Shown here one piece after another: positions 3,501 to 64,000 of a stretch of 64,000 nucleotides of DNA. Source of the DNA: Sanderia malayensis (lineage: Eukaryota; Cnidaria; Scyphozoa; Semaeostomeae; Pelagiidae); the NCBI GenBank assembly GCA_013076295.1, contig RQOL01000532.1:2914001-2978000 (forward strand). The letters run 5' to 3'. Within the stretch, counting starts at the first letter, position 1. Every line of letters begins with the position of its first letter. The notes beneath the pieces are model-generated. The model saw only the letters and a list, made by a program, of their open reading frames with translations. It ran no database searches and was not told the DNA's origin. The translations under genes were made by a program, and so were the position numbers.

Positions 3501-6474
3501 TGCTTACCCCCGTCATGGAGTATTGGGACCCCTTAAAATCATATTGGATGATATTAGGCTCCAGGGGGTAAAGTAAGACAACCATATTGCATCAGTATCG
3601 GGATTGCTATCATTTTTATACTGTTACTAGATATTATTCTGTCTTACTTTTTGCAGATCGCACAGCTTTGCGATTAGAAAGCGGCCTTCTGAACTAGCCA
3701 GTGCACGCATTCTCAACATGAACGTGCGTGGCAAGCGTGGAAACATCGTGCAAGTTTATCCGGCAGTCGAGTACGATTTCGTGCCTAACAGACTTGTCGC
3801 AAGCAAAGGAGACCATATACATTTCCAGTAAGACTCGTTTAGAGAGCACATACAGTAAACACCCGCGTATAAGAACCTGTGAATTCTGCATCCAGCCTAT
3901 TGTTCAAATACAATTGCCTATTGTCTCTTCTATTGTTGGTTTTAGCCTGGATGGTTCTTAATTCACTGTTTCTTATATGCGGGTGTTTATTGTACCTTAT
4001 TCCATTCGTACCCCCCATTTGAGTATGAATACGCAACTTCGATTCTTGCTTTGTTTGCGAATGTGAATCTCTGGTTCATTTCCAGATGGACCGGCTCAAA
4101 TACGAACCCGAACAACAACGACGGACAGGGCTTGGCCGGTACAGATCGGTCAAATGTTCTCTTGCTAGAAGCGCAGAGATATAACGAAGGAAAATCCGTC
4201 CAATCTGAAACCAGGTTCGGACATTTTGGTAATAATCACCCGGAACATTTGGACAAGGTGAAATTTTTTGGTTTAAGTAGAAGCGACCTGGTTTCATTGG
4301 CCATGTTAAGACCTGGTGAGTGTTATGATTGCATTACAAACACGGTCATTTTGTGTGCGGGTGGTGTACTAATGGTGCAGAATACAGAATCAGAAACAAG
4401 GTCAACTAAAGTAGTCGATCACAGCGGATTGGCTCAGCGGAGTTTGAGAGAGTACAGTGGAGCTTAATAGAGTACAGTTGAGTTTGATAGAGTACAGTGG
4501 AGTTTAATAGAGTAAAGTGGAGCTTAATACAGTACAGTGGAGTTTGATAGAGTACAGTGGAGTTTAATAGAGTACAGTGGAGTGCAATAGATTACAGTTG
4601 AGTGCAGTTAGACCATAATTTAGTACAACGGAGTGCGGTTAGAGTACAGTTGATTACGGTAGAGTACATTTGGGTGGGGTTATAATGGATAACATGCGCA
4701 GCTATCAATACGTTTTTTGAATATGCCTTTCTAGGCCAGCTTGGAGGCGAGATGTCTGAGCTGGATGATGCTGGCACATACTTCGACCTGGGACCGCGAA
4801 AGATCACAGGAACTGGCACTTATTTCTACATGAGCACAAGAAACAATAATTTCTCGAATCGAAGTCAGAAAGGCAAGATCGTTATTCTGCCCAATCCTAC
4901 ATCTCAGATGCAGGTTGGCTGGGGAGGAGGAAATATCGTATTGCGGGATGGGTAAGATGAGGCTTTTGTTTTTTCTAACAATTTCACGCCGAATTAGTGG
5001 CATTTATGTATTGGTGCTCATCATATTCACTAATATGCCAATGCCTTTTTATGTTCTTGCTGCTTTTTCACTGCATTTACGACATAACTTTCTTCTGTTA
5101 CATCAACAATGCACGGCGAAAAAATATTAACAATATGTAAGTAGTTCAAATAGGGTCTACGCATGGTAGACGAGAGACCAGCTTTGACTCCATGATTATT
5201 TTTGGAATAACTGAACAGAAGAGTCTGTATTTGTGTTTGCTTTACTTACTATCACAGAATGAACGTGAGGTGAATAAAGAATGTAATATAAAGAACAGGG
5301 CGACGGGGGTTACAACAGATTACAACAGTAGCAATGGTAGAAAGTTTTCCTGGCTCCTTTTGAGGCTCTTTCGGGGCTTGGGACCCTGGACCCCCCTCTC
5401 GCACACCGGACAGTGTTGGGACTACGATACAACAGAGCTTTTCGTTTTGATTCGATAGTAATTCGATGTAAACACAACAGAGAAAACAATAATTTAGTTT
5501 GTTAATCGAATTTTTCACGTTTTCTTCCTAGACGTCAGGGTGTGTGGATAAAAGAAGATACAATGAACGGAGTTCAATCGATAACAGTTGAAGAATGGAC
5601 GGTTGACGCTGGCGATAATCAAGTTAAGCAGAAAGGAGGAAAGATCAATGTTGGAGATGGTTTTGCAAGTAAATTCATCGCTATTCACCCCATGCAACAA
5701 CTTGCCCAGAGTGGCAAAACATTCACTGTGAAAATGAAGGTAGACGATGGTGGGTCAAACAGTCGAATTTATCATTCAGTTGACATGAAGATCTGGACAA
5801 GAGTGGCGGATGTCAGCTATGATGGCAATGTGGCAAGTTTTCAGGCCTCATCTGGTAAGTCTGATGTCTATATGTGGTATCATTCAGTCTGCAGAATATC
5901 GCAGTTTTCGACAATGCCTCCCCCTTCTTGTGTGAGATCCTTCTTGCGTGAGATCCTTCTTGCGTGAGATCCTTCTTGTGTGAGATCCTTCTTGTGTAAG
6001 ATCCTTTTTGTGTGAGATCCTTCTTGTGCGAGATCCTTCTTGCGTGAGATCCTTGTTGTGTGAGATCCTTGTTGTGTGAGATCCTTCTTGTGTAAGATCC
6101 TTCTTGCTTGAGATCCTTCTTTTGTGAGATCCTTCTTGTGTAAAATCCTTCTTGTGTGAGATTTCTATTTTTTTCTTCTGTTTTTTATTGTTCCATTCTT
6201 GTGTACCAGTGTCAAGCTCGATGATGATAATTAGCCATGGTAAATGCAAAAGTGTTGTTATTCACACGTCAAATCTTTCTTATCTTCAGGAGGCGTTTAC
6301 GTGGCAAGAAAACACGCAAATGTCGGAATGATAGCAGGGATTACAGTTGCTTGCATTGTCTTGCTTGTCGTCGTCATAGGAACAGTGATCTACTGTCGCA
6401 AGAAGCCGGGAACTTATGAGCGAGCAACAACAAGACTGAGAAACCTGCCAAGGAGCTTAAAATCAGAAATCTGA
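547..6474 (+). CDS. DD3-3-like secreted / type I membrane protein, 763 aa, 14 exons
   Basis: Exons: 547-617, 894-947, 1184-1366, 1568-1624, 1968-2049, 2156-2272, 2394-2552, 2867-3069, 3228-3467, 3657-3827, 4086-4315, 4735-4951, 5532-5854, 6290-6474. They sum to 764 codons including the stop. The start ATG opens a signal peptide (about residues 1-16, ending VING) followed by [16 protein letters not shown], which I recognise as the hallmark N-terminus of Dictyostelium protein DD3-3 and its animal homologues. The large extracellular part is rich in Asn and Tyr, with Cys-containing segments such as [10 protein letters not shown]. The last exon encodes a membrane helix at about 713-735 and a short basic tail. 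The molecular function of this family is not known to me. Introns carry a MITE (3851-3994) and two minisatellites. The spliced frame is continuous throughout, with no break. Confidence 0.88.
3851..3994. mobile_element. MITE, TIR ending ACAGTAAACACCCGC, in intron 10
   Basis: The element begins TACAGTAAACACCCGC and ends with the inverted GCGGGTGTTTATTGTA. Related copies occur at 10152-10282 and, in opposite orientation, 54386-54530. They share internal blocks such as CCTATTGTTC. No coding capacity; non-autonomous DNA transposon of unassigned superfamily. Confidence 0.8.
4440..4675. repeat. Minisatellite, about 20-bp unit
   Basis: Roughly eleven degenerate copies of a unit near AGAGTACAGTGGAGTTTAAT in intron 11 of the DD3-3-like gene. 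Divergence rises toward the right end. Confidence 0.9.
5926..6171. repeat. Minisatellite, 16-bp unit
   Basis: About 15 copies of TTCTTGTGTGAGATCC with GCG/GTG variants, in the last intron of the DD3-3-like gene. Confidence 0.92.
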
Positions 6475-13355
<6,881 letters not shown>

Positions 13356-14573
13356 TTGATTAACTTATTTTCGAAAGAAATTATACTTTTAAATGCTTGA
13401 AAATTAATTTAAGTTACCCGTGCTTTCAATGTGTTTCTGTCTTTCAGAATTACTTTTGAGACTATTTAAGTCTCTTGTGTGCAGTATTATATTTACAGTT
13501 TTCATTTTGAAACATAACCGAATTTATAACAGCTAATAATTGTCATAAATGTATGTATATAAATTTTATTGAGATTCTGCGAATAATGTAATGTATTGGG
13601 CTTTTGAATGGAAAATAGTTTGTGTGGCATTGTTGAATTATCAACTATATAACTTGGGATCAAAAGTTGTTTTTTTTCATGTTATTTCCATTCTTAGCAA
13701 AGCAAGAAGATTTTTACGACTAAACCCCGACGTGTTCCATTTCAGCATTGATAAATATTGCTGTGTGATTAATTTCCAGGGGGTAAATTTGCCATGGCTC
13801 GGGTTCAAAAGCCCCAAGTGACTCTAGCAAGTTATAGTTCACTATTTTTTAGCACAGAGCAACAACTTATGCTCCCATGAGGACTGGTAGGTGTAGAGTT
13901 GGCAGATCGTAATATGGTTGGCCATTTCTGTTTTTTGACCACTCGAGCAATGGTTGAAATCAAACGCCTTCTTGGTCTTGTTTTGTATCATGAAGAAGTC
14001 AAGAAGCAAAATAGCTTCGAAGAAGAAACTTCGTATTCCTTGCCAGTGGAAGTTTATCCATGTTTTGAAACCTGAGAATCTTAAGTAGAGGTAAGAACTT
14101 TCAATATTTCATTATTTGTTTGTAGCATATTGGCCGCTTTCGCTTGCTTAATTCATGTTCGCACATGGGTCACTGAGTTTTTGCCGATGGGCCTAAATTT
14201 TGCAAGGGGGCGTGGCGTGGCGTGGCTTGCGCATTTTTCATGGTTCATGTGAAGTAGTTTACACTATTCATAACTGAACAGAGTTTGACAGAAAACAAAT
14301 ACTCTAATATATAGTATTAAATGTCTATGAATGCAGTATAGTTAATTTAAGTTATCGAATACAATCTAACATGCATTGCATTATAACTTATTATCCAATG
14401 TATGTATTTTGATACACTTACATCACTAATATACTTTGTTAAATATAATAATATTAAATAAATAAACTCTAATAAAATGAATTTACGGACAACGTTAGCT
14501 TGTGGAACACAATTCCTTCCTACTAAACTAAAATACCTACTAAAATACAGTGAAAGATCCCAATGCTTGGGCA
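13356..14573. other. Convergent intergenic spacer, no gene seen
   Basis: Lies between the PFKFB stop codon and the stop codon of the minus-strand gene at 14574. It should hold both 3' UTRs and is AT-rich. No coding exon recognised. Confidence 0.6.
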
Positions 14574-16398
14574 TTAAACTACGAATTGTTCTTGAAGCTC
14601 TGACCTGACGACATTTGCAGCTTTTATCAAATCTCTAACAAAAACATAGTCTCTAACCGCTTGGATTTCTTTCAACGATAATGTCAAGGTCGGGTGAACT
14701 TGAACCTGAAAAATAATATTTCGTTCAGTTGCAATGCTTTTCTTTGTGCAGAATGAATAGAGTAACACACACATTTTAATAAGAATAATTTAACTTTTGC
14801 AGAGCCTCTATATTGTTCAGAATAATTCTTAAATGATCATTATTTTTGAACAAGGCCTTCCCATTCGCATTTAGAAATTTCTCATCAAAGGAAATCAACA
14901 AGAGTATATTTTATAAAGGACTTACCAGATATTCCCGTGTTCTTTGCGTCATTTCGCTAGAGGTTGTTGACGATACACCTTTGCTGGCAATCGTAAGAAA
15001 GCTTGATACCAGTTTATTGTAGGCAACCATGATCCTTTCAAATGTTACTCTCATTTGAGAGAATTCGGCGACTAAATTTTGCATGCTTTGATCTCGGCTC
15101 AGTTGCACCAAGATTGATTGCATTGGCCCGTCGAACTTTTGCAATGCTTCTTGTTGTTCTACGATCCTTTTCGTCAGCTGAACGAAAATGAATCAATTGC
15201 AAAATTAGAATAAAATATTAATATAAAAACCATCATATAACGCGCTGTGAGTAACGAGTTAAGCGCAGATAGCTTCTTGTACTATCTCATAAAGCCCTCT
15301 CTGCCCTGATACTCTACAAACCCTTATATACACGTGGACTCACTACATCGCGTGCGCGTCCCTATGCCTTGCTCGTAACTCGTTCACCACCAGTGAACTC
15401 CATATAAGAAGTATAAGATCTATTTGTTTCTAGTGAAACTCTATAAGACTTCTTATATAGAGTTCACTGTTCACAACAACCGACCAATCAACAACGAGTG
15501 AGGCACAGGGACGCAATGTAGTCTAATTTACACAAGCATTATGTTCAGAGTGAAATGTAGCTATGTACCTGGTGTGGGGAGCATTGCACTGAGTTGAAGT
15601 TCAATGAAGCAAACGACAGTAGTATGCTATCAGAGTTGATGTGTACAAGGTGACTTGCAGCCTGCAAGAGAATTATCATTGCATAAATTAGCTATCACGG
15701 TGACTCTTCAAGGTGCTGATTTGTAATGAAAATAGAAGTAACTTTTGCTATGATTCGATAATGCATTTCGAAGTTTAGTCTCACTTACCAGTGTTGCTTT
15801 AAATCGTTGGCTGCTCTGAGTGAGATAGATTAAGCCGTCTTTCACTGACGTGACAAGGTCTTCCAACTTCTCAGAATTCGAAAATGCAAAACTCTGAGTC
15901 GTTGTTGTTGCAGTCGAATTGAGATTGGCTATAGAGCCTCTTAGTGGAATAGCCTCGATTTGGAGGAAGAAAAGGGCCAATATCACGGTGATGACTGAAA
16001 TAAGAAAAAAAATTTTGAATCAAGTGTCTTGTTGTATCCAGGTATACTTCTCTATAAACCAACTGTGGAACCATGATGTAGTAAAAATTCCTGATAATTC
16101 GAATCAATTTATCTTAGAAAACTCAGCTAATACTTTCTAACCCTCGATAATTCGAACTTTTGTTAGAACCATTTTCATTGCTGCCTTGCAGGCATAAGTT
16201 ATCGGGACTTTACTTCATAGCAAAACAAATTAACGTGCAACAAATTAAACATTTGATTATTTGATTAACTGTCTTTAATTCTCAATGCAATGATTGCAGC
16301 TCTCCATATCAAGATTCAATTGTATTAATATAACTCAAGGGTTGATTCTCTATCATAGACAATGATAATTATGGTTGCTTACCTGCGTAAAACTCCAT
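14574..16398 (-). CDS. Secreted helical protein A, class I cytokine-like, 232 aa, 5 exons
   Basis: Exons in transcript order: 16383-16398, 15789-15994, 15569-15661, 14926-15177, 14574-14705 (699 nt with stop). Intron phases are 1-0-0-0. Residues 1-20 form a signal peptide (FYAVITVILALFFLQIEA); the mature chain probably starts at IPLRG. The rest lacks globular-enzyme motifs and reads as several amphipathic helices (about 45-74, 78-95, 106-135, 137-170, 195-225) with one Cys and one NST glycosylation site. The next-but-one gene on this strand, protein B, shares exon junctions and C-terminal similarity (TREYL versus TRNYL at the last phase-0 intron). No family was recognised by sequence. The tiny first exon and the phases resemble growth hormone/IL-6-type cytokine genes, so cytokine-like is my inference. 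Another secreted helical bundle remains possible. Confidence 0.78.
15335..15524. mobile_element. Foldback element with nested palindrome, intron 3 of gene A
   Basis: Outer arms (GGACTCACTACATCGCG ... GCAATGTAGTCT) match the foldback at 10317-10508. An inner imperfect inverted repeat occupies 15392-15468 (AGTGAACTCCATATAAGAAG and its partner). It looks like one element inserted into another. Confidence 0.75.
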
Positions 16399-17993
16399 AA
16401 TATCTTTTTCCTTTCTTTCTGGACTTGAAATATTCAATTGAACTTCGTTTATTACAAGCTTTTTTTCTTTGTGTAGTTGCTTTAGCTGCTTTGAGCACGA
16501 ACGTACTGAACAGCATCTTGCCCCTCTTTTTATATGTTCTCCAAATCTCTGTTACATTGGTGCTTCAGTGGCTCAGATCATCGGGCTTTCCTAACTGAAA
16601 CGGGATCTCGTACCATTCTGTAGCAGGGAAAGTCACCACGTGCCCAAGGGTGCGGCCAAAAATAGATTACGATGTTTACTGTTGCTTATGTGTTTTCTTG
16701 AGAAGTACATGCCGCTTGCTTTTAGCTATACTTGCCACTGTTGTGTGGAGAAGGGTTTGGCTAGTTGGTTCTCGGAATTCCATTCCATAGTGTTGCTAAT
16801 CAAGCAGTGACTTCATTCAGAGGGTTTCACGTTTTAGTTATCAGCACCACGTGGTACCTGCCATATCATAGCAGGGCACTTAAGAATGTCAAAAAGAACC
16901 GCTCGGTAACCTATCGTTCTAGTTATAGAGATGACGTTACAAACAATACCCTTACCGAATATGCACATGCGCATTGGGAACTCTCATCAAGTCGAACCAA
17001 AATTATTTCTTTTCAACGAACGGCCAAATAGCTTAGTTTTTATGCTGAAATGATTGTCATAAGACTGAAATTTATATTAAGTAAACAAACAAGGTTGATT
17101 AGAATCCAAAGAGAAATCAAAATAGAAATTAAATTATGTGAATTTGTAATGCCATATTTGCAATTCCCCTTGTCATGTTGAATATCAAGTTTCATCTCTC
17201 CACAGGATTGGTCAAACATGATGAGCGAAGCTTGGGCACGACATGGATTCTAAGAAATCGATTCCTGGAATTATGCTTGGTAAGTAACCTAACCCAGTTA
17301 ACATATGCGGAAAGCGGCAACTTTAAGTTTTTGATGTAATTTTGGAAAGAACAGTTCAGTAACCGAGTGGACTAATGGTTTGTTTTTCTCCGTACCCCCA
17401 ACACGTGAAACAGGCTTCAGAAAGAGAGAAGGGAAGTCATCTCTAATGACTAAAAACTTTCGATCCAAGGTGAACAGCGCTCGTCAACAAATGTTGAATT
17501 TGTCAAGAAACGTTTCAAATGTATTTTTCTTTAAATACACGCCAAAACTGACTGTTTTCAAGTGTATTGTTAATTAAATACATGCGAAAATTCGATTCTT
17601 TTATCTGACTACGCCCATTTTTATTCACTGAAAATAAGAAAGGTTTTATTGGGGAACTTTTTCAGCCAGAGGAAGGTGGGCCAATATTCTGGATTCCAAA
17701 TTCTAAATTTGACCATTTGCAAAATAAATTGTATGACCCATTTGAGGAGCGAAGCACTCCTTGTATTTATCTTATTAAAAAACTTTCCTTCCAAAAGTTT
17801 TCCACATAAAAACTCAATTTTCAACGATATTTTTTATAAATCTGGAGAAAAATGTATTTACAATTTCGTTATTTACAAGGCTTTCTATCACAGTTAAAAA
17901 AGTCATTGTATTCACAATATATAAACAGGATATAGCAACTTATTGCACAAACAAATGCAAAATTCTCTGCAAAATCTAAAAATAGCTCAGTTT
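16399..17993. other. Spacer between helical A and HES A
   Basis: Holds the promoter of gene A (TATA at 16526-16534) and the 3' flank of HES A. A degenerate AATTCGAA-rich relic at about 16075-16160, just inside gene A, resembles the MITE at 24246-24440. No additional exon recognised. Confidence 0.55.
16526..16534 (-). promoter_or_regulatory. TATA box of helical protein A
   Basis: On the minus strand the sequence reads CATATAAAAAGAGGGG, about 130 bases upstream of the ATG at 16398. Gene B has a similar CATATAAATAAGAG element. Confidence 0.6.
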
Positions 17994-20180
17994 CTACATG
18001 GAAACCCAAGGGCGCCATATTGATTTATCGGACAACGGTTGCTTCTTCTTCGTGGGTGCAGGCGTGACGTAAGAATGTTGAAAATTCGATGCTTTGTTCT
18101 CTGACGAATAGCACATTTGCATATTTGGCGCACTAGCATTCATCATCATCATCATTAATGGACGATTGTGTTGGTTGGAAACAGGGCTCGCTGGTGGTGA
18201 TGGGTAAACAGAAGTAGCTTGCTGTTGTGCATAGCTTGTTTTGACAAATGAATGCTGTGTTAGTGGTGTCGTTGTGGATATGGCGTTCTCCTTCGGTGAA
18301 CACTCCATCAAGGGACTGGACGGTTGGTCAGGTGGCGAAGTTGAAATGTGCGTTAACATTCGCGCCTTTATTGTTGGGCTGACGTCATCAGTGCGCAGTA
18401 GATATTGTTGCACTTCTCGTGCGCATTCGTTGTAGCCAGCAAGAAAGTTTCTGTGTTGATCGAATTCTGAAAGTGGAAATGATTCAAATCATCATCAATC
18501 TGAATGAATGGGGAACAGAAACTGAATGAATTTGATTTGATGCGAAGAGTGACGCTGTGGTGGCGGGCGGAGAGCAACAGTCGCGATGATACAAAAGAGA
18601 GATGAGCTTTGAAAGTGAAAATAATTACACGCGCTATGCCGCATGACTCATTTACAATCCATGATATTACCGAACGTAGTTCCTCAACCCCTACGTGCCT
18701 GCTGTACAGATTAGGGTTGTACTGGCAATTTAGCTTAATTCGCATGCATTTCTGGAATGCTGGTTTGTGTAGTCCTTACCCTTTCTTTTCGACAAATCTT
18801 GCGCAAGGCACGCGTTGACTGATGGCGTGCGAACAAAAGAAAAAAGCGCGGGAAAACTTCCAGATGTATAACAGACAAACGAAATATTATCAATGTAATT
18901 TTCTTTTCTTTCAACGCAAAAGACCAATTTATTCGAAATTCGAATGATAATGGAAGCAGTGCGCAAACTCTGTGTACGTATTGTTCTCCAAACGAACAGT
19001 TGAAGGAATCATTTCCGATTCATTGTTTTCCACAATGGAACATGTTAAATTATTTTATATCGCATTCTGTTTGACACCGATGAACACAAATATGAGAATT
19101 CGGAGAATTTAGTATCCATAACTGCAAAATATTTAAGCAAGTGTGTGTTGTTTTCCCTCTTTGGCATCAGCACATACCATGACCGCCCTTTTGCGAAGAA
19201 CGCGGGAAAACATGTTCACTCCCATGGGATGGGCCTAGAGGTGCAATGTCGACTCCAGCAATTCACAAGATTTTCCATAGTGCGCAGGCGTGTTATGTCG
19301 TGATTATTAACAATAAAGCATCATAATAATCATGTTCTTACCATTAACGGTTTGTTGCTCTTTCGTGTCCAATGTCTTTAAGTAATTGACGGTGAGTTCC
19401 AGCACGTCTGCTTTTTCCATTTTCGTAAACTTCGAGTGGTCTTTGTTCATGGAGGATAGGACAAGAGCTTTTAACTCGTGGAGACTTTCGTTGATCCTAG
19501 CCCTTCTCCTTCTCTCCATCAGTGGCTTGCTGAACTAAAACAAAAACGAGAAACGTAAAATCTTCTCATTCATTGAGCCACCAAATTGTCTCATCCTCAT
19601 CATATTTGGGTACCAAACAATGTGCGACTCATTCTGCGACTCAAACACTCGTTTCTAATCACAGCTACATGACATTGTCTGTTCTATAGTTTACATTGCT
19701 ATACACCGAGGCGAAGAACATCGTTTGACAAAAGGACCCCTGCAAATTTATCAAGAGACTCTCGGTTCATGCTTCAGTGCCCAAAATTTCCCAAAATAGC
19801 TCCGAGGAACAGTTGCAAATTATTTGTTCTAAAGCAGAATATTGCCAAAGGCGAAACCCCAATCCAATACTCAACAGTTGGGTGAGGGGTGCATTTTGCA
19901 ATTTTCCCCCAAAAATGAAGAGAAATGTGCCGCGAGACAAAATCCCCAACTTTGGACGAATGTTACACTCCACTTGGGCTGCAAGCTCTTTGAAGCCCTC
20001 GGAGATATTTGTAGAGAGTTTGGGTCTACGAAGGGAGTTCTAGATCACTCTGAAATAATTCAATAATTCAAGTCGAAAATTTAAGAGAAAGGAAGGCTAA
20101 AATGAGAAATTTCAAAATACCTTTTTCTTTCCTGATGTATCAGTGACAACGCTTTCTTGCGCGGTGGAGTTTGGCTTCAT
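17994..20180 (-). CDS. HES: HES-family bHLH-Orange transcriptional repressor A, 241 aa
   Basis: Exons: 20121-20180, 19342-19534, 17994-18466 (726 nt with stop). The basic region [13 protein letters not shown] (about 23-35) has the HES-specific proline. The helix-loop-helix runs to about residue 80. The Orange domain starts near [20 protein letters not shown] Ser/Pro/Gln/Met-rich linker leads to the C-terminal Groucho/TLE-binding WRPW, here followed by VSM. Known role of the family: DNA-binding repressors of class C/N-box sites, usually direct Notch targets. The upstream region supports this (TATA box, three CSL sites). Introns fall just before the basic region (phase 0) and before the Orange domain (phase 1), the same as in HES B. 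All domains appear intact. Confidence 0.96.
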
Positions 20181-20242
20181 CGTCGTTTGCAATTAATAGC
20201 CTCAACTTGTTATGTTGTATGCTCACAATAAGCGTTTTGTAC

Positions 20243-20250
20243 TATATATA
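20243..20250 (-). promoter_or_regulatory. TATA box of HES A
   Basis: A symmetric GTACTATATATAGTAC block about 65 bases upstream of the ATG at 20180 predicts a very short 5' UTR, typical of HES genes. Confidence 0.65.
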
Positions 20251-20314
20251 GTACGCCTTTGCTTTGATATTACTGTATATGTATTACTGCGTTTATATGT
20301 GCGTGCGTTCTGTG

Positions 20315-20356
20315 CACGAGCTGGGCATAAACTGAAAGAAGTGTGTCACTCGCGTG
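20315..20356. promoter_or_regulatory. HES-type binding sites in HES A promoter (N-box, class C)
   Basis: CACGAG at 20315-20320 is an N-box. CGCGTG at 20351-20356 (CACGCG on the minus strand) is a class C site. Another CGCGTG lies at 20515-20520. HES proteins bind such sites and often repress their own gene; occupancy is inferred. Confidence 0.45.
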
Positions 20357-20388
20357 GCAGAAAAGCATTTATGTTGAGGCGCGCGAAC

Positions 20389-20396
20389 CGTGGGAA
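20389..20396 (+). promoter_or_regulatory. CSL/Su(H) site 1, CGTGGGAA
   Basis: Perfect match to the high-affinity CSL (RBPJ/Su(H)) consensus, about 210 bases upstream of the HES A ATG. Confidence 0.65.
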
Positions 20397-20473
20397 AAAC
20401 TCAAGATTTTTGATTGCCAAATGTGGCTGTGCAGATTAATTAGATTACAGAGTTGACCGCAGTCACCCGTAGC

Positions 20474-20498
20474 CGTGGGAAAGCTTGCTTGTGATTGG
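20474..20498 (+). promoter_or_regulatory. CSL site 2 in composite element with inverted CCAAT
   Basis: CGTGGGAA, then 9 bases, then GTGATTGG. The same arrangement with the same 9-base spacing recurs at 20567-20591. Confidence 0.65.
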
Positions 20499-20566
20499 TC
20501 GATACGTCTCTCGTCGCGTGCTACACCTTACTATTTACATAACAGTGGATTTCAGGCCTCGAGAAC

Positions 20567-20591
20567 CGTGGGAACCGGCCAACGTGATTGG
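20567..20591 (+). promoter_or_regulatory. CSL site 3 in composite element with inverted CCAAT
   Basis: CGTGGGAA, then 9 bases, then GTGATTGG. The 9-base spacers of the two composites differ, so the shared spacing is not merely a copied block. Confidence 0.65.
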
Positions 20592-22444
20592 CTAGTGCTC
20601 GCCGGACCAAAACAATGGACTAGCCATAACAGCGCGATTATAATTGCTCGCACAAAGGCGTGCATTGTGCATAATCAAGGCATTATCGCTTTAATAATGT
20701 CTATTGAATTGATATTTGCTTTGTTGGTCAACCAATCAGTATGGTTGCATAGGTGTCAATTGGGGTCTGTTTATTCCTCCTCCAATGGCCGTAATTTTCC
20801 TACTCTTTGCTTTTACTCAGAGTCAGACAACATCGACTGTAAAGCAAGCCTGTGTTGTGTTCTGTGTGGACTTGCCTTTCATTTGAATGATGGGCAAGAT
20901 AACCCTCTGCTGGAAGCGGTGTGCTGTATAAACAGTGTCCATCTCAGTATGGACTGTTTTGTTTCATTTGCATGTTTCATTCACACAGCCGATTTGGCAG
21001 GACAAGTCAAGGCATGCATGCACACGCTTTCCCCGACTCAATTCAAACCAATGACTATCAATTGACTTTGGCATATACTATTTCTTTTGTTACACGAATT
21101 GACATTGTTCAAGCAGAACAACATTTACATTAACAAGCATATGCTCAATTTAAATATGTTTATGTCCATATCGATGCAAGCAGCCGTACATAAGAAAAGG
21201 CAAGGTTTTTCAAACAATAAACAATGCGACACACTGTTTGGCAGCCTGCTTGTGAGCCTGCTTGTGGCCATATCGCGTTATTACATTCATGCATTGTCCA
21301 TTTATATCATTTAGGCGACATCTAAGGTGAGACGCTTGGGATGGCTCGTGCCATTTTGAATAGGGACATACTCCATTTGCTAACTGTCCCTCCCTACCCT
21401 GGACTTCCCAAATAATTACAATGCTGAAGAGGTACGCTTGGTGAGATTCTCTCTCACCCTCGTCGATAGATTAAAGAAAGACTCTCTGGGAGATCACAGG
21501 GACTTTTCTAGAAAGCAACCGAATTTCCGGACAACAATTAAACTGTCTTCATCAACAGACAATACGACTCGGCAGAGCAATACATATATCTTTTGTGCTG
21601 TTCACTCTACACCAAGCCTGGATTTGCCCCTGTCGCTAACCTTGTGTGACACTACAAAGCATACTTAGCGACGCATGCGTAGCATTGGCAATCCTGGGTT
21701 TGCTCCGACTTTGTTCCACCACATTACAAAACATAAAGATCAATTGTGGACAAAATGGGATTCGCTCTGGGTTAAATTCAACTCGGGTCGAACCTGGGTT
21801 AGTTTGTGTAGGTGTGGACAGGGCTTATATCTAGAACTGATCATATCCACTGTTGATATCGGTGGAATCATGTGGAATTATTTATTCAATGAGTGGGTCT
21901 TGTGGTGTTTCCAAACGGTTGACCTTTTTGGCTTTGTGGTCCAACTTGGCCTGAAGGCGTTCCTTGTCTGCTTCTAGCCTTCTAATCCTTGAATACATTG
22001 CGTGATCTTGAAAAATCACCAAATAATATTATATGTTTACACCTTGTCTGTATAAATGTGACAGCAATTATTATTTTTAGGCAAGTTGATCATATGATGG
22101 TTTACGTGATATGTTTGACAGCTCTTGTAGCCCTGTGTGCGACATAATGCTTTGCGAGCTTACGCGGCGAGAAAGTGGCGCGTGCCTCATTTCAGAAATA
22201 ACGCCATCCAAGTTTTAATTTCATTTTTCATGAAAAACTTTTTAATCGCTGTTCTACGTATACTATTTTGTTTTTCTTCAAACAGAAACTAATGATATAT
22301 CCTAGAAATATTTAAAGATCTTTTCGGTTACTAATATTACAAATTTGGTAAAGAATTACAGCCAAGAAAGAAAGCACATTTCAAAATAGGAATATTGGAG
22401 AAAATGTTTGAATCGATCCATGTTCATAACAATAGAATTGGCCT

Positions 22445-24835
22445 TTATATGACCTGGTTGCTTTGTGTTGCCGAAGATGTAAATCTTTGCATTGCAGCTC
22501 GATCCTTCTGCAGCACAACAGCTGTCACATATAACTCCTTCAGCAATGCCACGCTAAACTCCGACATTATTTCATCATCCGAGGGTTGCTTGTTTGCATA
22601 TTGTGGTAGGCTTTTCTGTAATCGCAAAATAAATAGATAACGGTTAATAAGAAAGTCTAGTTCTTCCCTTTCTCCATGAAACTACAATACATGTCTTTTC
22701 AGGTCTTGCAGCAACAACTCCAAAAATAACCGAAACAATATAGCAATTTGCTGTATGTGTTGTTGCAGGTAACTTTGTTGCTGAACCTTTCCTCGTGTCG
22801 CAACAATTCATTGCCTCGTTCTGAGATTTTATTGTGCCTCGTCCTGCAGAACTTCACACGAACGAGACACTGCATTTTTGCTTTTCTATTTGCAGAAATA
22901 CAGTGTCTGAAGCTTTGTCATACCTTTTCAGCCTACCCCTTTCTATAATTATAAAGCACTTCCCTCCCAGCTAGACGTATTGTATTCATTATCTTTTACC
23001 TACCAAATAATTTCTTGTAATGGCCTTCAGGCTATCAGTCGATGCGGGTTGATGCTTACTCGCAGTGATGGGTGGGATCTGAAAAACAGAGAAACAATAC
23101 TTCAGGAAACAATACTCGAGTATGACAGTTAAGGAATTTTTAAGGAAACTTTTGGAAACAGTGCTTAGAGTACCTGGATTTCCGCAAGTGCTTTCAGTGT
23201 ATATAAAACGTGCTGCACATTGCGAACACAGGTCTTGAGCTGGTTATAAGGCCCGTTGATTTCAAACGCATAAACATCGATAATTGGCTGCACAAACAGC
23301 ATTATTGATTTGTGAATGCGAACCAAATGCTGCTGGAGCTAAGAAAACAATTGCATGTGAAACAGTTATTTGGGCAAACACAGATCATGTATTTGCTATA
23401 ATGTTTTCGTGCAAGTGAGTACGAGAGAGTACTGTGAAGCATATACAGCAAAAATGGGCGTTTATGGAAAGGTCTGTGTGTTTAAAGCATAATATTTACG
23501 TTTAGATTTTGGCAAAACGTGCAGTTTGGTGCCAGTTTGAAATCTAGTGATGTATTTGTCTTGGCATTAAATCGTGTGACAGCCTACAAAACAGAAGAAT
23601 TAAGCCTAGTATCCATATAGTCGTTGAGGGTCGTTGGCAGTCTTTATGAGTCGCTGAAAATTAGGATCAGCGATGTGTATCCATATAGTCGTTGAGGGTC
23701 GTTGAGGGTCTTTGAGGGTCGTTGGCAGTCTTTCGCAGTCGTCGAGAGAATGTGATAAGAAAGCGCGCACAATAACAAAGTGACGCCAAATTTGTACGTT
23801 TGAAACATGACAGAGGCACACACGGAATTTTTGTTGCTGTTTTTCGCAAATATCATGTGTGTAAAAAGACCGAATACTTCTGCCATAAATTCGGACAAAC
23901 CTAAGGCTCCAAAATTGCTATTTTGTAGCGAGTCAAACATCTCGAAATACCCCCACGTGGCCTTTGGCATCTTTACTTTGGCAAGAAAACATATCATATT
24001 ACCATAAATCAAAGGATTCTCAGTCGTTTTATAGGTGTTGACGGTCGTTGAGGGTCGCTGAGATAGAAACTTTTCTATCTCGACGACCCTCAAAGACCCA
24101 GTCGTTTTGGGTCGCTGGAAGGATTAAAATCAATTTTTGACAGGTCTCTGCGTGATCGTTAATCTTTTCAGCGACTCCCAAAGACTGCCAAAGACCCTCA
24201 ACGACCCTCAACGACTATATGGATACTAGGCTTTAAAAAAATAGATATACAGTCAAATCTGCATAGTTCGAGCTCGTGTAATTCGAACTCTATCTAATTC
24301 GAACGACATTCTCTGTCCCTTCAAGGATCATTAATAAACCAATTCTTATAAAACAAACCTCCATAATTCGAACTTGTTGTAATTCGAACATTTTGATGCT
24401 CCCCCGGGGGTGTTCGAATTAGACAGAGTTGACTGTATATATAATTTCCTTTCTAATCAATTTGGGTTGATTCTAGTGAGGTAAATCACGTCAAGCGATG
24501 CAGAGAGGTTAAAGTTAGCCGAAATGCAGGAATAAGACAATTGATGAATCATAATAAATTTACACAAAGTATCTTAAGAGAATCATATTGGAACAGTGCA
24601 AGTCTGATGATCTAACTTCGGAGCTCTATCACTCTAACTTGATCAAGAATAAAGATCATATTGCAGTCAGACACAGAATGGTCATCACAGAACTTACATA
24701 TTCATTTTTGCACGACTCTGTCTCCGTTTTAAACGTGTGAAGTTTCAGGATGGTGTAGGACAGAGCGTTGTAGTTTTGGCCTTCTGCATGCACCAAACAA
24801 CACGCAACTATAAAAGTCAGTGAAATTGCCAGCAT
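22445..24835 (-). CDS. Secreted helical protein B, class I cytokine-like, 210 aa, 5 coding exons
   Basis: Coding exons: 24698-24835, 23500-23583, 23174-23338, 23004-23078, 22445-22615 (633 nt with stop). All introns between coding exons are phase 0. A splice acceptor at 24841/24842, six bases before the ATG, implies a non-coding first exon ending near 24948. The signal peptide is MLAISLTFIVACCLVHA; the mature chain has four Cys (SCKNEY, NCTFC, KTCV) and two N-glycosylation sites (NTS, NCT), with helical segments and a long amphipathic C-terminal helix. Exons encoding 28, 55+25 and 56 aa match the 31, 84 and 43 aa exons of protein A; junctions fall at CQNLN|L versus CSPHQ|L and at TRNYL versus TREYL. 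Paralogue of A; cytokine-like function is inferred. A foldback element and a MITE occupy the intron between the first two coding exons. Confidence 0.78.
23602..24233. mobile_element. 632-bp foldback transposon with repeat-rich arms
   Basis: The left end AAGCCTAGTATCCATATAG is exactly inverted at the right end (CTATATGGATACTAGGCTT). Each arm carries several copies of GTCGTTGAGGG or GTCTTTGAGGG. The middle is unrelated and has no ORF of note. Flanks are T/TAA-rich; the target duplication is unclear. Confidence 0.85.
24246..24440. mobile_element. MITE with ATACAGTCAA termini, Tc1/mariner-like
   Basis: Ends ATACAGTCAAATCTG and its inverted partner CAGAGTTGACTGTAT sit in TA-rich flanks. The interior repeats AATTCGAAC, a feature I associate with pogo/Tigger-like non-autonomous elements. 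Superfamily assignment is inference. Confidence 0.7.
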
Positions 24836-26598
24836 GTTTCTCTGTAAAGTGTAAGAATATGTAACACAGTGAAGAAAATATATCATGGCATGAAAGCAAG
24901 ACAAGCTTCCACAACTATAGAGTTTTGATAATATTCTGTCTCTACTTACTCGTTTTGTTCCCAATGTTTCTTTTCGTTGTGAGCACTTCTGAGTTTTATA
25001 TTGAACTCCGAAATTATCTGATATCTGTACACCTCTTCCTCTCTCTTATTTATATGCCCTCGCTCAGTCTCAGCACCATGCTATGAACCCATGTAACAGC
25101 TATTATTGGAAACACGTTTTTCACCTGCAGTGACAGAAATGTAGTTTTCAGTAGCCTTTCGGTTTTGTAAGTTGAAAAAGATACATATAACAAGGTAATA
25201 TTTATTTTCACTTTTCTTAGAAGTTCCTAAAATGTGGAGACTCGTTAAACGTGTAAAGAGAGACAGAGGGGAACCACAAAGCGGTGCTCTTTAAAGTGAG
25301 GCCTGGAGGGACGTGGCACTTTGAAATAACTGTTTTGCTTGTTGACTGAAAGTAATGAAGCTGAACCAAAGACGGTTTCATTTTCTGCTTTGCTCTTGCG
25401 ACAGAAACCCGTCTCCTTTGATGTAGCGTGGCTTAAAACTAGTATCAATTTATTATAATGTATCATTGCGTGGTATATTCAGGTCTTAACCTGTCACACG
25501 CAGCTTGAACGAGCTTTCGTGTTTTTCATCGGCGAGACGAGTTTCCAACGTTGTTCCTTGTTTTGTTTCGAAGGGGGAATCTTGACCTAGGTACCTTTCG
25601 GACCATCATTCTCAAGTAGGATCTAAAAATGCGTTGATCTATTTTTAAATTCAGTAAGAAACATTCAAAAAATCGATAAAAATCTTCAACCTACATGCCA
25701 TTTATCTACAATACAAGATTTTCAATTGCTTCAGACACCTCTAGAACAAGTGTCAGGTAAATAAAAATCTGTCCGCTATTGTCCGACTTGTGCATACTCT
25801 ACATTTGTCCGCTAGCAAACATTAAAATACAACAGCTAATTATCGAAGTAAAGCAAAAATATCAAACCGTAAATACAAAATTCTATATATCTACAAACTA
25901 GGTAACGCATTACAAAAAGGTAAACGTATACATACTCTAAACAAAACAACTAAAACTAAATACAAAACTCGAATTCATGGATAGATGAATGACCAGACAA
26001 GAGATCTTATTGGCTAAGAGAAGTACCGCACTCGGATTACTATTTTTACCAACTGCGCATGCACCAGGCCTGACAGTTTTGGCGCAAACTATTAAATTTC
26101 AAGTATTCTTGTTTGTACTCAACTGTTTCAAAGTATTGATATCAAATTTAATTACATATTTGTTTATATGTTAGATTGATAACACATGCATCTCATTTAA
26201 TTCACAGATACAAAGAGAACCGGAGATACCCGCAGTTCAAGGCGAATGTTATGGTTGGATACAGATTACCAATCCACAGGTATTTTTGTGATTTTTGCAC
26301 AAGGCACATGATTGTTTCTCTAATTTATTACTACAGTTATTTTCAAAACGAGGTTCGGATCGGTGGACTAGTACGTGACGTAAAAACATAGTTGACAACA
26401 CTTTGCTTGAAGTACTTAAAGTCAATCAAAACTTGGGAAAGCATGGTCGAGGGTGTATGGCGAGCCATAAAAACTCCAATTTTCAATTAACCTCTTATCA
26501 CCTGTATCTACACTGTGGATTGGTAATATGTTAGCTTATGCAATGCGCGAAGTTGAGTCAAGCCTATTATGCCAAATGAGAAATTTTGCTAAATGCAT
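24836..26598. other. Upstream region of helical B / spacer to HES B
   Basis: Contains the probable non-coding exon 1 and TATA box of gene B. Further on, a short inverted pair (ATTACCAATCCACAG near 26266 and its complement near 26515) spans about 250 bases and may be an old MITE. No further coding exon seen. Confidence 0.5.
25047..25054 (-). promoter_or_regulatory. TATA box of helical protein B
   Basis: The minus strand reads GGGCATATAAATAAGAG about 100 bases upstream of the predicted first splice donor (near 24948). It is very similar in context to the gene A TATA box. Confidence 0.6.
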
Positions 26599-27983
26599 TC
26601 ATTCTAAAAATGAGCACATATGAGGCAATCCGACCATGTCTGCCACTGTCTCCTCGTTCCCAGACAGATCAGTCAGTTCCAATTTGATTCCGGCTCCAAC
26701 TGCTTCCCCGAGAGATGTCTCCAGACTTGCATCATAAAAAACAGAGTCCAAAATATTTCCAAACGAAGGTTCTATCTCTTCTGTTTGTGTCGGGGTTAGC
26801 TCATCGCTCAGCCATGATACGGTTGACAGCGGTGATGGGCTCGAGTCGGAGACAGTGCTGGAAACAGAGCCTCGGTTTGAGATTGTTGTTGATGTAGAGC
26901 TGTGACAGATTGGTGCGTGAATTGGTGGCGTCACAACATTCGTGATTGGTTGGAGAGGCTGTCTTTGTAGCCTCGGAATGGGGATTTTTCCATTGACTTG
27001 TTGATTGATAGGTCTGTTGGCTATTGTAGGTAGGGGTGTGGGACTGAAGGATGATGGGATTGGTTGCGGTGTGTTTTCATCCTCAACTTTGACTCCACAT
27101 AGGACATTTGACATGCCAGCTAAAAGCTTGGCTTTGTCGTCAGCTTTGACATTTTCGAGCGAAACTAAGAACTGGACAAATTCGCTCACACACTGATTGT
27201 ATCCTGCTCGAAACTTTGGATTTTGTTGATACTCTGAAATAAAAACAATGACTTTGTAACAGGTTTATTCAATAACATTCAATAACTTTTCACACTGTGT
27301 TGACATGCGTAAAGAAAGTCTTTCACATCTTGGTTATTCATGTGATTCAATTCAATTCATTGATAAGCATTGTACTTGATACTTTTCAAATGTTTAACAT
27401 GAATTAAAGTATACAGTCTTCAACCAAAGTCTAAATTTGAAAGTCTTGACACTACTTACCAACAACTCTCGCATTTCGAACAAAGTTCACCGTAGCTTCA
27501 AGAATATCTGCCTTGTCAAGTTTGTCTTGCTACAAGAGAGGCATTTAATCATTCAGTAAAACTATCGATCTATCTAATCTCTAAATTGTAATGTTTCTTG
27601 CTGAAAGGCATTTGCTCAAGAAAACAGTGTTATGCAATGGCGTAACGCACGGTGTGCACCTTTAAGCACAAAACTAAGGGCCCCCAAACAATTGGGCCTC
27701 GAGGGGGGCCCGCGCGAAATTTTGTGAACAATTATTAATTTATGCAGTTAAGGCCAATCTCGGCCTGTAAACTTGATTTGCAAAAAATAGGGCCCCAAAA
27801 CCACTGCTTTGATTAAGGGCCCCACACTGCTCAACTACGCCACTGGTATGTTATGACTTAGTGTGTGCAGTAAATGCTGTGCTAAGGTACCTTTTCTTCT
27901 CCTTTGCAAACCAGGGTTTTCAACTCATCAAGGGATGAATTTATTCTCTCTCTTCTGACCCTTTCTGTTTTTTGTTTTCGAGA
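26599..27983 (-). CDS. HES-family bHLH-Orange protein B, partial (first exon not located), 265 aa seen
   Basis: Exons: 27891-27983, 27460-27529, 26599-27233 (798 nt with stop). The first recognised exon opens at a splice acceptor with SRKQKTERVRRERINSS, so an upstream in-phase exon with the ATG must exist; I could not find it. The basic region has Gln where HES A has the diagnostic Pro. The helix-loop-helix ends LEATVNFVRNARVV and the Orange domain starts EYQQNPKFRAGYNQCVSEF. The Ser/Thr/Pro-rich tail ends CSFLE with no WRPW-type motif. It shares two intron positions and phases with HES A and has one extra intron in the loop. Probably a divergent bHLH-O regulator; DNA specificity and Groucho binding may differ. 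Confidence 0.85.
27635..27845. mobile_element. MITE with CARTGGCGTA-type inverted ends, HES B intron
   Basis: Starts CAATGGCGTAAC and ends CTACGCCACTG, with GGGCCCC-rich interior blocks. It resembles widespread non-autonomous hAT-type elements beginning CAGTGGCGTAG. Target duplication is not clear. Confidence 0.65.
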
Positions 27984-44749: not shown

Positions 44750-45347
44750 AGGCACACGATACGTCGTTGTTTTAATATCGATATAAATAAAATTATGAAC
44801 TATTAACTTTAACTTGACCTAGCCATAAAGCCTATAAGACTTGTTGGTATGACATTGTTGTATTCTTTAGGTGCGAAAACGTTAAACTTTACTGCCTTTC
44901 TACTCCCTTAGTTTTAGTACCTTATGTTTTGTTTAAACCAAATTTTGTTTTGATTATTTAAAGTTTATTCAATATTTTTTTTTAATGAACCTTTGTATTT
45001 TGAAACTGGATACAATGGTATCGTAGCAACCTTTCGAAATCTATTGTTTTTCTCGCGTTCAGTGTGGGCCGCGAAGTCGTAAGCAAAATGGCTGCATGAT
45101 TTTGTAACGGTTTCACAACAAACCTTACGCAGTGAAGACTCTATTGTTCACTTCTGAAAGCATTTGTCAAGGCATTAAAGCTACTGAGCCGCAGTTTTAT
45201 GAAAGGGTGGCTTATTTGTTTGTTTATTGACCTTATTGCTGAGGTATTGTAGTGTTCACAGTTTCAAAAAAGTCGCATTTAATCACTGCTGTTCGCTGTT
45301 TGGTCTTTAGGCCTGTTTAGGCCATTATAAACGAACGCCTGGATAAA
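44750..45347. other. Spacer between TMEM209 and ANKRD26-like gene
   Basis: About 600 bases holding the TMEM209 3' UTR and the 5' leader/promoter of the next gene. No exon or clear repeat seen. Confidence 0.6.
44786..44791 (+). terminator. Poly(A) signal AATAAA of TMEM209
   Basis: Canonical AATAAA 37 bases after the TAA stop. Confidence 0.6.
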
Positions 45348-48300
45348 ATGTCCGGATTAAAAAAGTTTCTTCCTGGAAAGAAGAAGTCAAAGAAGTCTAG
45401 TGCAGCATCTTTGCAGTCAGCTACAAGTGAGCAGAATATTCCAGATGGAAACTCGGAGCCAGGCTATAGGAATGTTAAGGAAAAGGACCTGCCGAAATTG
45501 CACAAAGCTGTATGGAATGGAGACTTTGCTAAAGTTAAACAACTCACGAAAAAAGGAGATGTTAACCAGATGGACAAACATCACAGGTAACTTGTATAAT
45601 AACTCAATAATATTAGTAAGATTTTAGGGGATCTAACGTTTCTCTAAAAACGGAAGTATCTCTGGGATTTCCAGGAAACGAAACAAGAACGCCCCCTCCC
45701 CCTCCACTTAAAGCAGGTGCACGGGGCTTTCTCCATCGTGTGATTTCTACCCCGAGTTTGCATCTGAGGAGAACAAAAACTTGTTTTGCGGTAAATTTTC
45801 TTATGCAGCTGTAAAAAAACAGCACTGCGAGTAATAGGCAATTAGCATTGATTATTTAATACCAGGTGCAAGGTTGGAAAACATGCAAATGCTCGCAGTG
45901 ACGCTACGCTGCTCGTAGTTTTGAGTCGCAGCTACGAACAAAAGCATCGGCCATTCACTCGCAGCTCGCAGCCCGCAGCAGCCAGTATTTTGTTCAAACA
46001 ACTGCGGTTGCTCGCACCACAAAAGTCTTTTGCTCGCAGGTCGCAGCCCACAATTTACGTTTGCTCGCTACGACGTGTCCGCGAAAATCGACATGTTTTC
46101 CAACCTGGCAGGTGCTAAATAATTAAATTGTTTGCACTGCAAAATTGTTTGTGCTAAGCATAAGTGATGCCCGCAAGATTGATTGCCACTGAAATGCTTC
46201 CTATACCGGATTGTATAGCTTGGGTGCCCTTAGAAGATATCTTTACAATGAAAACCCATGCTAATAGTTAGCTTGGCATCACAAGGGTAGGTAAGACAGT
46301 TGAGCTGACTATTTCTACTGCAGATGGGGAATCTGGAATAGCCGCAATTATAAGAATACTTGCATAAAATTGAGCTCTCTAGCATTGAGCTACCTTCTGC
46401 TAAATTCCGCATTTTGCTTCTAGTATCTATGTTTTCATCCAGGTTTCAGCTGGGATGGCAATGAAATTGACTTTGAAATTTATCTTTCAGAACGCCACTG
46501 CATTATGCATGTGTTCGTGGCTCTAACGATATTGTTGAATGGCTTTGCGGAAACAGAGCCAAGCTTGGAATTTGTGATGCAGAAGGTAGAACAGCCCTCA
46601 TGAAGGTATTAATTACATTTCACTTTGACATCCTGCTCTTCTCTTGCTTCCATGCTCTGGTTAATGATGTCTTGACTGAATGCTTTATTTTTTTGTATAA
46701 TTCCTTATCATCTTCCCCATTACTTTATTACCTTGTCAAATGCTTTATTCTTTAACCTAACTCCTTCTACTCCTGTCTGATGCTATATTCTCTAGCCTAA
46801 CTCCTTCAACTCCTGTCTGATGCTATATTCTCTAGCCTAACTGCTTCTACTCCCGTCTGATGCTATACTCTCTAACCTAATACCTTCCATGTTTTTTCAC
46901 TTTGCCTAGAACCTCATATAATGTCTTGAGTATTGTTTTTCATGCAGGCTGTAGAGTGTGCAAAGCAGAACTGTGTGCAGACATTATTGGCTCATGGTGC
47001 AGAGACCAATGTTGTTGATGTTAGTTTAGTCACTCCTCTGCATCTCACAGCCACTCACGGCAGCACAGTTATTGGTGCAATGCTTCTTGAAAGAGACGCG
47101 AGGGTCAATGCAGCAGATACAGTGAGTTGCAAGCATGTTTGCTTGGTATAGCACAATTAGGTATCACACTGTTTGGTTTATTTGCTTTTTGCATTTTCTA
47201 TCTTTAGGAGAAACTTACACCACTGCATGTTGCTGCAACTCTTGGATTTCCGGAATTTGTTGAATTCCTTCTGAAAGAGTTTGCACTTGTGGATGAAGTA
47301 GATGTTTATGGGAGGTAGTTTTTCTATTCAACTTCAGAATCTTTCATTTTATATGTCGCAATTTGTTACTTGGCCGGTTTTTCTCATTGCCATTTTTTAT
47401 TTAGAACTCCCTTGATAGCTTCCTCAATGGAAGGTCATATAGCGATTGTTAAACAACTGCTGGATGCAGGGGCAGACACGGAAGTCAAAGACAATGAAGG
47501 ATGGAAGGCTGCTGATCATGCTGCAATGTCAGGCTATCACAGGTAATCATTAGTGATTGTGATCATAGTGATTCTTATCACTCTTCTCATAGTGATTATG
47601 ATTATAATGATTTTGATTGTGATTATAGTGATTGTGATTGTGATTATAGTGATTGCGACTGTGATTATAGTGATTGATGCTTGTGATTATAGTGATTAGT
47701 GCTTGTGATGATAGTGATTAGTGATTATGATCATAGTGATTCTGATTGTGATTATAGTGATTCTGATGGTGATAGTTGTGATCATGATGCACCCATTGTT
47801 TTAACCTTACGTGGCTATGATCATTACTATTTTTTTTTAGCATTTCGAATTTGATCGAAGAGTCAACAAATGATCAGAATCAGCCGCAGTCTCCGCACCA
47901 AAACGCGGGCTCGAACTTCGGCAGTGGAACTGGCACTCCGTTCAAGTCAAGCAGCACACAACCAGTGTCGAGTATATTTGGTGGACCAGCTATTAACGTC
48001 AATGGTATGCGAGCAACCTGATAGAAACTATTTGAATACACTAACATTCTGTAGCTGCTCCAAGTTTTTCCACGCCGTCTTAACACGCCTTTTCAATGCT
48101 TCTTGCTCCCCTTTTCTAGTTGACACTGATGACGAATCTACGGAACACGACTCGCCAAGCAGGTATGCATAAACTCTGATAACTTTCTGAATAATGTTTG
48201 CCTTGGGCTTTGGTCCACGTTTTACATATATCTACGTGCATTTTTGTGACGTTCAAATCTTTTTAGGCATGATTTTCATGATTCCTGGGCAGACTCAGAC

Positions 48301-63718: not shown

Positions 63719-64000
63719 GTAAATCATTTGACTTACAAATATATGTATATATGCCAGTATTCATGCGAGTAGACGGCATGAAACTCTGAGTATTGAAAAA
63801 TACTGTAGTTTTTCTTTGTTTCTACTCTTCATGTGTGCAATGCCAGTATACCTGTATACCTCCTGGGGGGGGGGGGCATTTGGCCCATTGCTGAGCAGTG
63901 AAATCAAGGTCGTCGATTTTAACGGGCCTTGTGTATAGCCAATCTTTAAGGACCTCAGGTGTTTCTTTGACATTACTGGAACATTAATATGTGATCATTT

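Follow-up and report, generated by a model that had tools for sequence, protein, structure and literature searches.

We examined a 64,000-nucleotide stretch of the genome of the jellyfish Sanderia malayensis (contig RQOL01000532.1 of assembly GCA_013076295.1, positions 2,914,001 to 2,978,000), hereafter the window, in whose coordinates features are given unless a contig is named. Two neighboring genes on its minus strand, A and B, are tentatively read here as encoding cytokine-like, small secreted all-alpha ligands and as old, fast-evolving tandem paralogs, with a confidence somewhat short of even. A cytokine identity is plausible, and the exon layout gives a hint, short of proof, of helical cytokines in a group of animals from which hardly any are known. 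The fast divergence and close linkage of A and B fit cytokines, and cytokine ligands are the most specific reading favored by the evidence. That reading is about as likely as the alternative that both are lineage-specific secreted helical proteins with no cytokine link (structural, digestive, nematocyst or lipid-binding, for example) and that the intron likeness arose by chance. The likelihoods expressed here for the several readings overlap and do not sum to one.

As ligands, the A and B precursors would be cut by signal peptidase and would then fold with their four long helices (A, C, D and F) packed in a bundle, where long crossovers would link A to C and D to F and a short turn would join C to D. 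A cell-surface receptor would then bind them, and this binding may feed a STAT-type response. An earlier note on this DNA had described the pair as secreted helical proteins with class I cytokine-like gene structure and as possible invertebrate members or analogs of the four-helix cytokines; the host, a cnidarian, does lie outside the bilaterians.

Gene models and intron layout

Gene A (14574-16398) has five coding exons of 16, 206, 93, 252 and 132 nt, encodes 232 amino acids and has intron phases 1-0-0-0. Coding exon 1 (16383-16398, 16 nt) consists of MEFYA plus one nucleotide and ends in phase 1 inside the signal peptide, at a GT donor. Exon 2 (15789-15994) holds the remaining signal peptide, a Ser/Thr-rich N-terminus and most of predicted helix A, and exon 3 (15569-15661, 31 codons) a loop and a short predicted helix. 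Predicted helix D lies wholly, and helices C and E mostly, in exon 4 (14926-15177, 84 codons), followed by predicted helix F in exon 5 (14574-14705, 43 codons and the stop).

Gene B (22445-24835) encodes 210 amino acids and has phases 0-0-0-0; its five coding exons measure 138, 84, 165, 75 and 171 nt, compared with 165, 60, 153, 66 and 93 nt in human IL10 (sizes unconfirmed). Its coding exon 1 (24698-24835, 46 codons) carries the signal peptide and predicted helix A, and exon 2 (23500-23583, 28 codons) a Cys-bearing loop. Predicted helices C and D fall in exon 3 (23174-23338, 55 codons), helix E mostly in exon 4 (23004-23078, 25 codons) and helix F in exon 5 (22445-22615, 56 codons and the stop). 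From reading the sequence, a possible 5'-untranslated region (UTR) intron of gene B lies on the minus strand at 24842-24949 (ACGA/GTAAGT ... TTTACAG/AGAAAC-ATG), 6 nt upstream of the ATG. Separately, short GTCGTTGAGGGTCGTTG-type repeats in direct and inverted copies occupy 23610-24225, inside the intron that follows coding exon 1 of gene B.

All eight introns of the two genes have GT-AG boundaries, and the EukProt entries gene6167 (A) and gene6169 (B) match the models at 100% identity over their full length. Genes A and B are real and no artefact. The exon sizes and phase-0 junctions proposed earlier for both genes agree with the gene models and with EukProt, and the proposed signal peptides correspond to hydrophobic, secretion-type N-termini on both proteins, judged by eye.

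All six IL-10 family genes have a single five-exon layout in common with IL3, IL21 and IFNL1, in which the introns divide the helices at analogous places and split no codon (PMC2654155). Reading frames of fish type I interferon (IFN) genes likewise contain four phase-0 introns (PMC4929537). Gene B has this class II layout, with five coding exons and all four introns in phase 0, and gene A has it in part: three of its four introns are in phase 0, an extra phase-1 intron lies in the signal peptide, and a counterpart of B intron 3 is missing. The class II features of an N-terminal signal peptide and a length of about 200 amino acids are shared by the precursors of 232 (A) and 210 (B) amino acids, with the N-termini judged by eye. 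Gene B also shows all four features by which zebrafish IFN-upsilon was sought (five coding exons, phase zero, a signal peptide and multiple helices; PMC8863823), its signal peptide being assigned by eye and its helices taken from a weak model.

The variations in the pair also have published counterparts. Human IFNL2 and IFNL3 have an additional first exon of four residues plus one nucleotide followed by phase-0 introns, an exon that IFNL1 lacks (PMC2654155). An intron ahead of the start codon is found in many type III IFN genes, and intron 3 is absent from the type I IFN genes of sharks and from IFN-gamma genes (PMC5332411). That two neighbors each repeat a published class II gene-structure variant speaks against a lineage-specific family whose introns resemble those of cytokines by chance.

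Within helical cytokines, the gene layout of the pair is nearest to class II (IL-10, IFN-lambda and fish type I IFN), nearer than to class I. The cytokine-like gene structure claimed earlier holds for the five-exon 0-0-0-0 layout of B and for the tiny phase-1 first exon of A. Since the class I cytokines IL-3 and IL-21 have the same five-exon layout, gene structure alone is no guide to class. We consider it unlikely that A and B are true class II helical cytokines of a cnidarian that have kept the IL-10/IFN-lambda exon layout, including an IFNL2/3-type mini-exon and an IFN-gamma/shark-type loss of intron 3.

Predicted fold, homologs and relationship of the pair

AlphaFold was run on single sequences, and short helix breaks were joined by hand. 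The model of A has helices at residues 47-78, 84-93, 103-132, 135-170, 178-192 and 200-228, and the model of B at 21-40, 75-98, 106-127, 143-156 and 173-203. Confidence was very low (pLDDT 42.2 and pTM 0.37 for A; 39.9 and 0.29 for B). Both models are all-helical apart from a few short strands in a loop of B, as expected of the mostly helical proteins described earlier. In these weak models the helices are separated by long, short and long loops, as in up-up-down-down bundles; with pLDDT and pTM this low, the models do not settle the topology.

Each long helix of the two models sits almost entirely within one exon, with an overhang of at most four residues. The order in which helices map to exons is the same in A and B: helix A sits in the signal-peptide exon, a loop exon follows, and after it come C and D, then E and finally F. 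This shared mapping again argues against lineage-specific proteins with a fortuitous intron layout, and the IL-10-like placement of the four introns of B is reached by 0.46% of random placements.

The models were also compared with known structures, as had been proposed as a check on the cytokine claim. With E≤10 as the limit, Foldseek returned 202 structures matching model A and 42 matching model B. None of them reached E≤0.001, and no cytokine stood among the best 50 of the 202 for A or among the 42 for B. VIA-align aligned 757 chains to A and 331 to B, and in neither case did the 50 entries listed include a cytokine. Because the models are of very low confidence, this lack of cytokines among the listed matches rules out nothing.

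Two results weigh against cytokine ligands. A stricter test, in which all introns should fall outside helix cores, fails for both A and B. Neither A nor B matched a single Pfam family at E≤10, class II profiles included, a silence to be read with the knowledge that HMMER filters and divergence can conceal distant members. Helical cytokines are described as so divergent that sequence searches often fail (PMC2654155).

Other searches gave a similar picture. In a collection of 5.8 billion proteins (427 candidates scored for A and 55 for B), only A and B themselves were found at E≤10. The best matches in a sequence search of the PDB had E values of 0.3 (A) and 0.86 (B), both to unrelated proteins. 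Protein searches of the S. malayensis genome with A and B returned below E 0.9 their own exons alone, with no recognisable further copy. The HES gene between A and B has a 61% relative in the same protein collection, which suggests that A and B are faster evolving, or younger, or have relatives with too few exact words in common with them for this kind of search. A and B are probably fast evolving and have to date been seen in this jellyfish alone.

Are the two genes related? Freely aligned, mature A and B are at chance level: 445 of 1000 shuffles score as well in global alignment and 605 of 1000 in local alignment. hhalign gave a probability of 0.1, no signal, and a full-length MAFFT alignment left the junctions out of register. 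Similarity is observed around the shared phase-0 junctions, in tests which, like the junction motif below, were selected after the match had already been seen. When exon pairs were anchored on these junctions, exon 4 of A (84 residues) against exons 3 and 4 of B (55+25 residues) gave a z of 4.3, a score equalled by one in 3000 shuffles; nothing unusual was seen in the remaining three pairs (p 0.10, 0.20 and 0.49). We also ranked 15 residues on each side of the proposed junction pairs against all offset pairs. Two proposed pairs fell in the top 0.2% and top 0.8%, a competing pairing (second intron of A with second of B) likewise in the top 0.8%, and the remaining proposed pair, at the end of helix A, only in the top 6%. 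Jointly, the two junction windows were equalled by 20 of 20,000 random junction sets. Genome-wide, the junction motif TR-x-YL/GTRRG has 10 occurrences, versus 7 for a reversed control; the eight that lie outside A and B consist of repeated sequence and have a stop no more than 10 codons upstream.

The paralogy proposed earlier is less firm than was implied: similarity shows at the junctions but not in free alignment or hhalign. A and B are probably old tandem paralogs. An alternative is that they are unrelated genes that merely flank a HES gene. The chance-level free alignments, the hhalign result, the misplaced junctions in MAFFT and three unremarkable exon pairs of the four would all be expected then. 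The two genes nevertheless lie about 8 kb from each other on one strand, their common motif is found elsewhere only in eight repeat copies with a nearby stop, and the junction-anchored tests, chosen after the match was seen, stand at 1 in 3000 and 20 in 20,000. We regard unrelated origins as unlikely.

Signaling genes, class I cytokines and neighboring elements

The genome contains a STAT gene. Two joined exons score 45.6 bits against STAT_bind (cut-off 27) and a nearby exon 27.8 bits against STAT_alpha (cut-off 27.5). The exons lie on the minus strand of contig C405, at 4570-6015 within 1740200-1750100, and encode DNA-binding and coiled-coil parts that read as STAT5-like. The JAK profiles PF18377 and PF17887 had no match in the genome, and the control genomes were silent too; trust in such silence is low, as a search with PF01017 (STAT_alpha) was blank although a STAT_alpha exon exists. 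The IL6 profile also had no match in the genome, nor did any control match it. On JAK in Coelenterata, PMC13203501 is at odds with itself, the Results reporting it as detected and the Discussion as not.

Receptor profiles gave three candidates. A match to PF01108 (Tissue_fac) at 22.0 bits, below the cut-off of 27, scores 41.0 with fn3. A match to PF09294 (Interfer-bind) at 29.4 bits exceeds the cut-off of 21, but fn3 scores 31.2 on the same stretch and a TSP_1 domain lies beside it. This FN3 domain belongs to a TSP1-FN3 gene at C809:185974-186153 and C469:4953-5132; the Pfam scan was of the C809 copy, the C469 stretch reads the same, and the two are perhaps haplotype copies. Both matches are FN3 domains of genes that also carry TSP_1. 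The third is an open frame of 105 residues on the minus strand of contig C675 (1438-1752), whose sole Pfam match is IL6Ra-bind (PF09240) at 20.9 bits, against a cut-off of 24.3. It lies antisense to a prolyl-4-hydroxylase exon and directly upstream of it and may be either a chance match or a class I cytokine receptor exon. Of the receptor and JAK/STAT genes suggested as a check, a STAT gene was found, but the JAK profiles were silent, as in the controls, and the receptor matches were FN3/TSP_1 or sub-threshold.

The earlier note had proposed class I helical cytokines of the IL-6/growth hormone (GH) type. Like IL-6 and GH genes, gene A combines five exons, the first coding one tiny, with intron phases of 1-0-0-0, and the long-short-long helix spacing of the models and the sub-threshold IL6Ra-bind frame point the same way. 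Cnidarians are reported to have the class I receptor CRLF3, in a paper that also, citing others, places the four-helix bundle in cnidarian ancestors (PMC6797617). Gene B, however, has phases 0-0-0-0 with no tiny coding exon, a tiny phase-1 exon is equally a trait of IFNL2/3, and neither protein matches Pfam. The models are too weak to give a fold, and the intron pattern of the pair lies closer to class II. We judge the class I assignment, a special case of the secreted-ligand reading with which its likelihood overlaps, improbable.

We surveyed 10 motifs in four regions (40 tests). TATAAA occurs on the minus strand 136 nt before the ATG of gene A (16529-16534) and 219 nt before that of gene B (25049-25054); each gene has two copies within 1 kb upstream, a count reached by 14% of survey windows. 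Four STAT-like palindromes TTC-N3-GAA lie between 16769 and 17270, within 1 kb upstream of A (top 1% of survey windows). Two overlapping AU-rich nonamers (TTATTTATTTAAT) are found 3' of the gene A stop (14453-14465, minus strand); at least two such nonamers occur in a fraction of 0.00, to two decimals, of 600-base windows (top 1%), and gene B has none. Only the AU-rich nonamers, ATTTA and the TTC-N3/N4-GAA sites of A reached the top 2%, and B shows no excess of any of these in the same survey. Because 40 tests were made and B is without such motifs, this evidence is weak and carries little weight.

Between A and B, but outside the pair, lies a HES gene (17994-20180, minus strand) of bHLH-Orange-WRPW type, with a three-exon model of 241 amino acids and a 260-residue EukProt entry, gene6168. 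Among named proteins, its product comes closest to HES-2-like from the scyphozoan Rhopilema esculentum, at 49% across the full length. A second HES-type gene lies upstream of B (26599-27264, minus strand; Hairy_orange, E 1.2e-6), so that the pair sits among HES genes. Other observations in the window include an exon-like open stretch between HES and B (21885-22028, minus strand) encoding a charged coiled-coil end (...RIRRLEADKERLQAKLDHKAKKVNRLE...) that has no assigned gene, and a 6-phosphofructo-2-kinase exon (8027-8257, plus strand). An ankyrin-repeat gene, ANKRD26-like by eye, followed by long acidic/coiled-coil frames, occupies 45321-64000 (plus strand); GC skew reaches 0.26 at 52-56 kb, within this stretch.

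Comparison with known helical cytokines

A published survey places IL-6-family ligands in vertebrates only (PMC13203501), and the origin of the IL-10 system has been placed in early vertebrates (PMC12652433). STAT long predates these ligands, and some reports say the same of JAK; A and B may bear on what activated that machinery. Were they true class II cytokines, interferon/IL-10-type ligands would predate the cnidarian-bilaterian split, against the published origin of the IL-10 system. We saw no cnidarian helical ligands among the papers listed by searches of the open-license literature, which does not imply their absence in print. Gene structure aided the recognition of IFN-lambda (PMC2654155) and IFN-upsilon (PMC8863823), and a cnidarian pair with such a structure is a concrete candidate for a pre-vertebrate ligand.

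Invertebrate secreted ligands offer one comparison. An oyster IFN-like protein has reportedly been put forward as interferon-like. Unpaired of insects has been put forward as a JAK-STAT activator (PMC13203501).

Among vertebrate genes, the class I long-chain cytokines IL-6 and growth hormone resemble gene A in its tiny first coding exon and phases, and differ in the layout of gene B and in the missing profile match. The IL-10 family, fish type I IFN and IFN-upsilon share with the pair a signal peptide (by eye), a length of about 200 amino acids, predicted helices and, in B, five coding exons with four phase-0 introns; unlike them, A and B show no detectable sequence similarity, and their cysteines differ from the IL-10 pattern. 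Gene A differs from IFNL2 and IFNL3 in having no intron 3 and no sequence similarity to them, but resembles both in starting with a coding exon that holds just a few codons and one nucleotide, with phase-0 introns after it. As in the IFNL genes, the sister gene is without the mini coding exon (IFNL1 there, B here). The possible intron 6 nt before the ATG of B recalls type III IFN genes, and the missing intron 3 of A is shared with shark type I IFN and IFN-gamma.

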